From Candidatus Bathyarchaeota archaeon (GTDB taxonomy: Archaea; Thermoproteota; Bathyarchaeia; Bathyarchaeales; Bathycorpusculaceae), in contig JAOAIV010000005.1 in the NCBI GenBank assembly GCA_026414525.1, forward strand, positions 1 to 32,522: DNA of 32,522 nt. The letters run 5' to 3'. The position numbers and the translations under genes are program-made. This document shows positions 27,380 through 30,943 of the stretch, piece by piece; position 1 is the first letter of the stretch; each line of letters starts with the position of its first letter. The notes beneath the pieces were generated by a model. That model searched no databases. It was not told the origin of the DNA and saw only the letters and a program-made list of their open reading frames with translations.

Positions 27380-27416
27380 CCTTAACTGAATGTAACTTGC
27401 ACATTGGAGGTGCACG

Positions 27417-28562
27417 CTTACGGGATCATCACAGACATTTACCATAAAGTATATTATACATGCTAAATTTGAGATAGAAGGCGTAGTAGAGAAACCTGAT
27501 GTTATAGGCGCAGTTTTTGGTCAAACTGAAGGACTTTTCGGGCCTGAACTTGATCTTAGAGAACTGCAGAAAACTGGCAGAATAGGCAGAATTGAAATTG
27601 AGCTACATTCGAAAAATGACCGCACCACGGGCACAATAACGGTGCCAACAAGCTTAGATCGCGTTAGCACAGCATTAATTGCCGCGAGCATAGAAAGTAT
27701 AAACCGCGTCGGGCCTTGTGCAGCCAAGGTTGTGCTAGACCGCGTTGAAGACGTGCGTGAAGCAAGACGTAAATTAATCATCGACCGCGCTAAGGAGATT
27801 CTGCATAAGTGGAATATTGAGTCGATGCCAAGCGTAGATGAAGTCTACAAGCAGATTTCTGACACGATGAAAATTGGTAGGGTTGAGAAATATGGGCCAG
27901 AAGAGCTTCCTGCCGGTCCAGAATTGGAGAATGCAAAGGAAATTATTATTGTTGAAGGCCGCGCAGACGTAATAAACCTAATGCGCTGCGGAATTATGAA
28001 TACTGTAGCGCTTGAGGGCGCGAAGGTTCCAGAATCGATTAAAAAGCTTACACGGGAAAAAGAGGCAACAGCGCTTTTGGACGGAGACAGAGGCGGCGAT
28101 TTGATTCTCAAAGAACTGTTGCAGGTTACGAATATTCGCTATGTTAGCCGTGCGCCTAGAGGCAAAGAAATTGAGGAATGCAATTGCAAAGAAATCTATG
28201 AAGCCTTAGCGGCACGCGTTCCTGTTTCAGAGCTTTTGAAGCCTAAGAAAGAGCGGCCTAAACTTGAAGTACCCGAGGAAATTGTGAAAACAGCAAAGGA
28301 GTTGCAGGGCACGCTTGAGGCAGTTCTTTTAAATGAGAAGCTCGAGCAGATTGAACGGTTGCCTGTGAGCCAATTAGCCGAAAGGTTGCAGCAAGTAGCC
28401 AACGTGGATACAGTAGTTTTCGATGGTATTATTACTCAACGAATTGTGGATATGGCTAGCGAAAAGAACATTAAGCGCATAGTTGCCTCTCGCCTTTCAG
28501 AGGCAGTGAAGCCGGCGTTAAACGTGGAGCTCTTAACCTTTAAGGATGTTCTTCCGGGTTAG
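27417..28562 (+). CDS. dnaG: Archaeal DnaG primase-like protein (Toprim), N-terminus extended relative to the ORF track; start codon uncertain
   Basis: VEGRADVINLM and LLDGDRGGD Toprim motifs. In-frame upstream sequence TFTIKYIIHAKFEIEGVVEKPDVIGAVFGQTEGLFGPELDLRELQKTGRIGRIEIEL is characteristic of archaeal DnaG, so the GTG at 27642 is not the real start. GGAGGTG at 27406-27412. Confidence 0.9.
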   Translation, partial: LTGSSQTFTIKYIIHAKFEIEGVVEKPDVIGAVFGQTEGLFGPELDLRELQKTGRIGRIEIELHSKNDRTTGTITVPTSLDRVSTALIAASIESINRVGPCAAKVVLDRVEDVREARRKLIIDRAKEILHKWNIESMPSVDEVYKQISDTMKIGRVEKYGPEELPAGPELENAKEIIIVEGRADVINLMRCGIMNTVALEGAKVPESIKKLTREKEATALLDGDRGGDLILKELLQVTNIRYVSRAPRGKEIEECNCKEIYEALAARVPVSELLKPKKERPKLEVPEEIVKTAKELQGTLEAVLLNEKLEQIERLPVSQLAERLQQVANVDTVVFDGIITQRIVDMASEKNIKRIVASRLSEAVKPALNVELLTFKDVLPG

Positions 28563-30943
28563 TCACGCATGAAGTCCATTAGACTTCTCGCAGCGCCTTC
28601 TTTTTTCTGAGCCTTCAGTAGGTCTTCTTCAGTTATGCCGAAAAACTCAAGTACACGGGCAGCGGCGGGCGCAACCTGCTTGGTCACGTAATATTCAGTG
28701 TCCACTTCGCCATAAGCAGCGAAGACGTAGGGTTTTACCCTATCGTAAAGGCGTCCTTCGCCAGTCAAGACCACATAGCCTACTTTGTCGCCTACACTCA
28801 TTTTCCAGCCTTTGCGGCTTAGTGCTTTCGCGGCTTCCACGTGCGAGGCTTTTATTTTGTATTCCTCCACGGGTTTTGTGAGAGTTTTCCAGATGATGAG
28901 GTCGCGGAACGGCACTTTCCTTTGTCTTAAATCCGCGATGACATTACGTACATACTCAGCGGCTTTACTGGGGGCCTGTTCTTTTAGGATTATTTCTAAA
29001 ACTTGCTCTTGCACTTTTTTGGCGACTTCTGCCCAGTCTCCGCGGATAACTTCTAAGCCGACGATGTCTATGCTACCATCTGGTAGCAGCCCTGCGTAGC
29101 GTTTTTTGGCTTCAGTGAAGAAAATGCGCGTGTAAAGCTTGTCTCGTTCGATTTCTAAACCTAATTCCTGCTTGATTTGCTTTTCGAGCTCTTGGATTTG
29201 CTTTTCCTCGTAAGCTACGAATAAGCTGTCGGTGTCGCCGTAGATGACTCTTAAGCCCTTCTGTTCAGCCATTTTGATAGCAGCGAGAATTGTGTGTCTG
29301 CCCCATGCGGATGCGGCTTCGGCTACTGGCTTACGGTACCATCTTGCGCCTGTCCAGCCAGCGTATCCATAGGCGGCGTTTGTGATGACTTTAACCGCTT
29401 TTTGTCTGGCATCCAAGACTTGGTATTCGGTGCTCTTCGGGTCTAATGTTTTCATTTTGGCGCGAACTTCATTCCGCGTATCGATTAGGTAGGATAAGAC
29501 TTCCTTGTAGAAGCCTGCTGGTTGTCTTCGGAATTTATGCTTGACTTCAGGCGCTTCGAATATGCCGCTTGGCGGTGCCGGTTCTGATGGTGGGATATAA
29601 GTGTCTGGAGAAAGGTTGTATGTAATCATTATGTTGGGATACATGGATTTGAAGTCCAAGACTGCGATATTAGTGTGAAGACCTGCTTTTGGTTTGAGCA
29701 CGATTCCACCAGCATAAGGCTTGTATGGCTGCTCCACACGTTTTGGTACGAGCTCGCTGATTTTCTGCGCGTGTTTTATGAAGAACCATTCTACGCGGAA
29801 GCCTACCGCGGCGGTCATCACATGATCTAGCGGTAAGCCTACGAGGCTTGAGAGTTGGATAGCAAAATCCAAAAGCGCTACTGTGGCACCTTTTATCCTA
29901 AGCGCGTTTTCTTTGGCGAATGTTTTAAGGGCTTCTCGTTTTTGCTTGCTGTCCCAGTAATCTGCGAAGTCTACATCGTCTATTATCGGGTGCTGCGTGG
30001 TTTTCATGATGCCCAAATAGTCTGCGAGGTTCTGGAGGGTTTTTACTTTAATGTCTGGGAATTCATCTGCAAAGTCTGCGAGATCCAGATTGGCGATTCC
30101 TGTCAGCGATGTGTGGCCGTAAACGCTGGTGTGCGGCTCGGCGCATGCACGGTCAATGCAGAGTTTTATCCCAAGTTTGCTACTTCGCTCCTTCAGGTAA
30201 GACCAACCGACGGTGTTTGTAGCGTAGCCAGCAATAATGTCGGGGTTGAATTTCTTGACGTAGCTTAGGAATTGCTCCAGCAAGGGCTTGTCGTCTTTGT
30301 CCTCGCCTGCAAGAAACTGTTTGTCTTCGCCACTACTTGTTGCTGCAGAGAGTATCACGATTGGATTTCTATCGGGTTTCGGTGAGCCTTCGCGGCTGTA
30401 ACAGATCATCGAGAAGCTGAGAATGCGTAGTGCTGGCAGGTCATGCCTATTCAGCAGTTTAGGCGTTGACGTTGCCGTGTAGATTTTGTCTGCGCGAACA
30501 CCGATAGTGTTTTCTGCTTCCACAGCGTCTACTTCGTGCCAGCTGCATGGAACAACGTTGTTGCTGACGAGGTATTGCATGGTGAAGCGAACGTCATCTT
30601 CGAGGCACATTTCTACACCTTCGATTTCCCGAACTGCTTTTGCAAGCCTTGCCGCTTCATTGGGGCTTCTGCAGTAAACCTTTATGGTCTGCACGGGTTT
30701 ACCGAAGAACCTACGCGGCGCAGCCTCTAACTTCACTATTGATAAGTTATGCGCTTTGCTGATTTCCTCGGCAACTTTCGCCGGCTCAAAGCCCTCTTTA
30801 ATGACCGCGTAAAAGTAACAAACAAAGTTCCGGTCGATAATAAGCACTCTTTCGTCGTTTTCCGTAATTCCCCAGAGCCACAGTTCCGCTACGCCATCTC
30901 GCACCTCGGAGTTAATGTCCAGGAGCCAAAAAGTAATCTTCAC
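28559..30943 (-). CDS. polB: Family B DNA polymerase with apparently degenerate 3'-5' exonuclease motifs
   Basis: Polymerase motifs DFKSMYPNI, RQKAVKVITNAAYGYAGW and YGDTDS present; convergent with dnaG with overlapping stop codons. Confidence 0.95.
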   Translation of the reverse strand: MKITFWLLDINSEVRDGVAELWLWGITENDERVLIIDRNFVCYFYAVIKEGFEPAKVAEEISKAHNLSIVKLEAAPRRFFGKPVQTIKVYCRSPNEAARLAKAVREIEGVEMCLEDDVRFTMQYLVSNNVVPCSWHEVDAVEAENTIGVRADKIYTATSTPKLLNRHDLPALRILSFSMICYSREGSPKPDRNPIVILSAATSSGEDKQFLAGEDKDDKPLLEQFLSYVKKFNPDIIAGYATNTVGWSYLKERSSKLGIKLCIDRACAEPHTSVYGHTSLTGIANLDLADFADEFPDIKVKTLQNLADYLGIMKTTQHPIIDDVDFADYWDSKQKREALKTFAKENALRIKGATVALLDFAIQLSSLVGLPLDHVMTAAVGFRVEWFFIKHAQKISELVPKRVEQPYKPYAGGIVLKPKAGLHTNIAVLDFKSMYPNIMITYNLSPDTYIPPSEPAPPSGIFEAPEVKHKFRRQPAGFYKEVLSYLIDTRNEVRAKMKTLDPKSTEYQVLDARQKAVKVITNAAYGYAGWTGARWYRKPVAEAASAWGRHTILAAIKMAEQKGLRVIYGDTDSLFVAYEEKQIQELEKQIKQELGLEIERDKLYTRIFFTEAKKRYAGLLPDGSIDIVGLEVIRGDWAEVAKKVQEQVLEIILKEQAPSKAAEYVRNVIADLRQRKVPFRDLIIWKTLTKPVEEYKIKASHVEAAKALSRKGWKMSVGDKVGYVVLTGEGRLYDRVKPYVFAAYGEVDTEYYVTKQVAPAAARVLEFFGITEEDLLKAQKKEGAARSLMDFMRD

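Follow-up and report, generated by a model that had tools for sequence, protein, structure and literature searches.

An archaeal PolB3 lineage with a substituted exonuclease site and an eroded read-ahead pocket: a candidate damage-tolerant polymerase

PolB3 is generally regarded as a polymerase that proofreads. In a 32,522-nucleotide stretch of a Candidatus Bathyarchaeota archaeon genome (assembly GCA_026414525.1, contig JAOAIV010000005.1; hereafter the window), we found a PolB3 gene in which all four catalytic acids of the exonuclease site are replaced relative to the exonuclease-competent structure 5mdn and the polymerase motifs are intact. The loss, far from being peculiar to this genome, is old and extends over a whole clade, and the pocket that stops archaeal PolB at deaminated template bases appears to have been lost along with it. 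The features are collected in Table 1.

Table 1. Features of the PolB3 gene and its convergent neighbor in the window.
Feature	Position	Strand	Details	Basis
Exo-dead PolB3 gene	28559..30943	-	794 aa, GTG start	ORF
N-terminal domain, eroded uracil/hypoxanthine pocket	30554..30943	-	aa 1-130	Alignment, KOD pocket residues
ExoI position	30395..30427	-	RILSFSMICYS, aa 173-183	Alignment with 5mdn RVLAFDIEVYN
ExoII position	30194..30232	-	AGYATNTVGWSYL, aa 238-250	Alignment with 5mdn VGYNSNGFDWPYL
ExoIII position	29894..29929	-	LKTFAKENALRI, aa 339-350	Alignment with 5mdn LMRYVLDDVRST
Polymerase motif A	29630..29662	-	VLDFKSMYPNI, intact	Alignment
Polymerase motif B	29357..29398	-	AVKVITNAAYGYAG, intact	Alignment
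Polymerase motif C	29216..29245	-	IYGDTDSLFV, intact	Alignment
C-terminal PCNA-binding (PIP)-like motif	28568..28585	-	SLMDFM	Aligns with SLLDFL of 5mdn
Archaeal dnaG primase-like gene	27642..28562	+	Convergent, 4-bp overlap with PolB3	NF003108, E 4e-101

The reading frame runs for 794 codons with no internal stop. Its product has Pfam matches to both PF00136 (polymerase domain, E 1.2e-64) and PF03104 (exonuclease domain, E 2.5e-18), and its top PDB match by sequence is 5mdn, the family-B polymerase of Pyrobaculum calidifontis (E 8.6e-217). 5mdn was also the best match in a fold comparison of the AlphaFold model (TM 0.84; mean pLDDT 89), and in this model the fold of the exonuclease domain is retained. 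In a tree that included PolB1 and PolB2-type sequences taken from the same class, the window protein and all other PolB3 rows fell on one side of a branch with an SH-aLRT of 99. The protein is a true PolB3 orthologue of an old lineage. Its likeness to the PolB3 of Thermoprotei (5mdn) covers the whole-length sequence and fold, the polymerase motifs, the PIP-like C-terminus and a convergent dnaG gene. The SLMDFM tail also aligns with the S/K-L-x-D-F ends of relatives and is a putative PCNA-binding motif.

We considered whether the protein might be a PolB2 and rejected this based on the tree, motif C and the neighboring genes. The true PolB2 of the class is a separate gene with the motif C sequence HGIVDS and a Rad51-like neighbor; an inactive RadA gene, a PolB2-type neighbor, is absent beside the window PolB3. 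The class also has further B-family polymerases of 614-669 aa with an intact motif C (L230-L234, L240, L241 and L243). Pfam detected no exonuclease domain in the three of these that were scanned, and one (L230) adjoins a radical-SAM gene.

The preliminary description of this DNA reported a PolB with substituted ExoI and ExoII motifs and intact polymerase motifs, and the sequences that it named (RILSFSMICYS, YATNTVGWSYL, DFKSMYPNI, KVITNAAYGY and YGDTDS) are all present in the reading frame. Alignment with 5mdn confirmed both substitutions. The FDIE of ExoI reads FSMI, with Ser178 in place of Asp and Ile180 in place of Glu, and the NSNGFD of ExoII (NxxxFD) reads ATNTVG (AxxxVG), with Ala241, Val245 and Gly246 in place of Asn, Phe and Asp. 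The description was also right that ExoIII lacks YxxxD, but it placed the motif at ALRIKGATVALLDFA; the true equivalent of YVLDD in 5mdn is FAKEN (FxxxN), about five residues directly upstream, where Phe342 replaces Tyr and Asn346 replaces Asp. The same alignment showed no displaced catalytic acids elsewhere in the exonuclease domain. The other conserved acids there, D235 and D287, are non-catalytic and are also present in 5mdn. Judged from the alignment, the exonuclease site has almost certainly been lost, and the prediction that the enzyme lacks proofreading is strongly supported. Polymerase motifs A, B and C were confirmed as intact against 5mdn, as was the KKRY motif.

Orthologues of the window PolB3 were found at every level from its family through order and class to phylum, and also in genomes of named species representatives. 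The closest, from another genome, is 86% identical, shares the exonuclease loss and has intact polymerase motifs. We compared 100 non-redundant exonuclease-dead (exo-dead) sequences with 77 exonuclease-competent (exo-competent) PolB3s. The ExoI Glu is kept in none of the exo-dead proteins and the ExoI Asp in nine; the ExoII Asp is kept in 69, although not in the window protein; and the ExoIII Asp is kept in none (one has Glu). All exonuclease residues are kept in the 77 exo-competent proteins, but the two sets were sorted by these residues, so that informative comparisons have to come from the tree and from the remaining columns. The uniform replacement of the ExoI Glu and ExoIII Asp (100/100) strongly supports the earlier suggestion of a polymerase that would not proofread.

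In a quick tree built on the polymerase domain only, with SH-aLRT values and no bootstrap, 67 exo-dead PolB3s formed one group (SH-aLRT 97). This group comprises Bathyarchaeota, Brockarchaeota, Korarchaeia and Aigarchaeota- or Nitrososphaerota-labelled genomes. Exo-competent PolB3s come from Thermoprotei, Nezhaarchaeota, euryarchaea and two Asgard lineages (Baldr- and Sifarchaeota). Outliers beyond the exo-dead group (L141, L180 and, in part, L139, L140 and L198) have their own separate losses. A single origin of the loss is favored on this sequence evidence.

Several individual sequences had peculiarities of their own. In two phylum relatives (L139 and L140), polymerase motifs B and C are altered in addition to the exonuclease motifs. 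An archaeal exo-dead PolB3 (L159) sits on a contig whose label is Syntrophaceae bacterium and which is probably misbinned. In one gene (L041, genome G052), motif B is interrupted by an intein-like insertion of about 500 aa. In a near-complete genome (G037), PolB3 lies in two frames of about 580 and 213 aa (L040 and L069), which could be a split gene, a frameshift or an assembly error.

The polymerase site is held constant across the clade. The Asp, Tyr and Pro of motif A and the Lys, Asn, Tyr and Gly of motif B are kept in all 100 members, and both Asp residues of motif C in all 99 readable sequences. Close pairs gave dN/dS values of 0.03-0.10 across the gene, and in most genomes the frame is open. 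Exo-competent PolB3 has 81 invariant columns in its polymerase domain. In the exo-dead group, conservation stays at ≥90% for 74 of these and at half or more for the rest. For the exonuclease domain, 14 of 29 such columns are kept and seven fall below 50%, mostly at motif positions. The ratio of exonuclease- to polymerase-domain rates was 1.31 in exo-dead and 1.14 in exo-competent proteins at matched divergence. This amounts to a modest relaxation of the exonuclease domain with its fold kept. Taken together, the low dN/dS, conserved polymerase columns and kept fold argue for a polymerase that is being maintained, not one that is decaying. Many relatives do have no PolB3, as might be expected of a gene on its way to being lost, but purifying selection of this strength, open frames and catalytic residues conserved across a clade of several phyla make decay or an assembly artefact very improbable. 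Chance or assembly error is excluded by the same loss in the 86%-identical relative and about 100 further orthologues.

PF03104 still matches 26 of 26 family members scanned, so domain annotation alone conceals the loss. These matches, the kept fold and the ExoII Asp that most relatives retain (the window protein does not) could be taken to mean that the exonuclease still works through unusual residues. We consider this hardly credible, since ExoI and ExoIII no longer have their metal-ligand acids, all four are missing from the window protein, and the conservation of alignment columns revealed no newly conserved acid in the exonuclease domain of the clade.

The N-terminal pocket of archaeal PolB captures uracil and hypoxanthine in the template and stops synthesis; its residues have been listed for KOD polymerase (PMC8596578). 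We checked all 17 published positions in the alignment and scored five core read-ahead residues (Y7, P36, P90, R97 and R119, KOD numbering). P90 is the sole core residue kept in the window protein; Y7, P36, R97 and R119 are replaced by Ser12, Cys42, Ala101 and Gln123, respectively. All five are intact in 75 of 77 exo-competent proteins versus 0 of 100 exo-dead ones, and R97 is lost in every exo-dead sequence. Fourteen N-terminal columns are invariant in exo-competent PolB3, nine of them in the pocket, and every one of the six N-terminal columns with less than 70% conservation among exo-dead sequences is a pocket position. It appears that the editing site and the deaminated-base stop were lost together in this clade, and its members are probably natural exo-minus, uracil-tolerant polymerases. 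In 5mdn and related enzymes, the FDIE, NxxxFD and YxxxD motifs and the read-ahead pocket are all present, whereas the window lineage is predicted to be without both functions.

A guardian role beside PolD has been proposed for PolB, acting through uracil and hypoxanthine binding (PMC5045986). The window lineage resembles euryarchaeal PolB (Pyrococcus) in that PolB3 coexists with PolD. Unlike the Pyrococcus enzyme, it has an eroded pocket, so the published role is not simply transferable to it.

The preliminary description had also suggested an accessory role beside a replicative enzyme. The window genome does contain an exo-intact PolB1 and the large subunit of PolD (DP2), the latter cut at a contig end. 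In this 85% complete assembly we found neither DP1 nor a Y-family polymerase; DP1 was found in 8 of 8 relatives tested, the DP1 of four relatives has intact phosphoesterase motifs, and a genome of the same genus has both DP1 and a Y-family polymerase. Among 89 good genomes of the class (≥90% complete, ≤5% contaminated), PolB3 is present in 53 and absent from 36, DP2 is present in 87 (missing from two) and PolB1 in 82 (missing from seven). This patchy distribution, together with the coexistence of PolD and exo-intact PolB1, marks PolB3 as accessory and dispensable, in line with the suggestion. Its presence showed no association in either direction with that of a Y-family polymerase in the class (Fisher p 0.28, uncorrected for relatedness).

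The neighbors of the window PolB3 are dnaG, a CTP synthase gene and an AOR family gene. A convergent dnaG adjoins 63 of 93 testable exo-dead PolB3s and is the only widely recurrent neighbor: we found no damage-response gene beside exo-dead PolB3s and no conserved neighbor able to supply an exonuclease in trans. In the window, the dnaG frame (27410-28562, plus strand) runs upstream of the listed GTG to the expected N-terminus, where there is no ATG, GTG or TTG. The same is true of L146, and a non-standard start codon is possible.

The dnaG neighborhood raises the question of whether the enzyme works like Pol alpha, taking over primers from primase and adding a short stretch of DNA, for which proofreading is unneeded, before PolD continues. 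Pol alpha is likewise an exo-dead, polymerase-active B-family enzyme (PMC7544198). However, a gene absent from about 40% of good class genomes would be odd for a routine replication step, and the convergent orientation of dnaG means that the two are not co-transcribed. Exo-competent PolB3 has the same neighborhood; we saw it around most of the kin of 5mdn, and it is known in crenarchaea (PMC4104785). We regard a primer-extending role as improbable.

We lean modestly towards a proofreading-free, non-stalling accessory polymerase that takes part in lesion bypass, mismatch extension or gap filling. PCNA would recruit the enzyme to a primer end at a stall or a gap, where it would extend mismatched or damaged ends that it is unable to edit and read past deaminated template bases without stopping. 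It would then hand back to PolD or PolB1, both with proofreading of their own. The combination of an intact polymerase site, no predicted editing, no predicted deaminated-base stop and a PIP-like tail fits synthesis where PolD or PolB1 stall. From sequence we infer the absence of exonuclease activity, the recruitment by PCNA and the bypass, extension or gap-filling role alike; translesion synthesis specifically is plausible.

Alternatively, the enzyme may be a general repair gap-filler without lesion specificity, whose proofreading and read-ahead functions became dispensable once PolD and PolB1 replicate the genome. High-fidelity polymerases do coexist with it, two fidelity functions were lost with no obvious new signature, and the exonuclease domain is modestly relaxed. 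The eroded pocket and exonuclease residues could likewise reflect relaxed constraint and not a gained bypass function. Gap filling alone, however, explains neither the complete absence of the ExoI Glu nor the restriction of the loss to a single clade when PolB3 is accessory in other lineages as well. We consider this reading unlikely, though worth keeping in view.

The damage-tolerant role that we prefer would be convergent with those of PolB2 and Pol zeta. Sulfolobus Dpo2, a PolB2, is an exo-less and efficient extender of mismatches and lesions, and the window protein resembles it as a B-family enzyme without predicted proofreading beside an exo-proficient replicase (PMC8764526). Unlike PolB2, it has YGDTDS, a near-complete exonuclease fold and a dnaG neighbor. 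PolB3 of S. islandicus is non-essential, and its loss sensitizes cells to 4-NQO (PMC8100216), a sensitivity measured in another lineage. By analogy, these two enzymes offer precedents for a bypass role. Pol zeta and Pol alpha are also B-family catalytic subunits with an inactivated exonuclease domain and an active polymerase (PMC7544198), but they belong to separate clades and have other subunits. Our searches found no C-terminal metal-binding domain in the window protein. The resemblance to Pol zeta and Pol alpha is functional and convergent.

Inactivated exonuclease motifs have been described for PolB2, Pol alpha, Pol zeta and the C-terminal module of Pol epsilon (PMC4104785, PMC7544198, PMC11791011, PMC2669801). 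In the passages that we consulted in openly accessible papers on archaeal PolBs, we found no description of an exo-dead PolB3 lineage. Standard annotation gives these proteins an exonuclease domain, so the loss is readily missed. The accompanying loss of the deaminated-base sensor is a new point.

We tentatively propose that, in a common ancestor of the Bathyarchaeota, Brockarchaeota, Korarchaeia and Aigarchaeota-type lineages, PolB3 gave up both editing and the sensing of deaminated bases and turned into a polymerase dedicated to damage tolerance, with an origin separate from those of PolB2 and Pol zeta, and that it may have been under selection since. The joint loss across an ancient archaeal branch suggests that the enzyme came to specialize in damaged or awkward DNA. 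As judged from sequence, this whole branch has a PolB3 that can neither proofread nor guard against deaminated bases and whose polymerase site is nonetheless conserved in full. The guardian role as proposed would therefore not be general, and the function of PolB3 alongside PolD can be tested directly in vitro.
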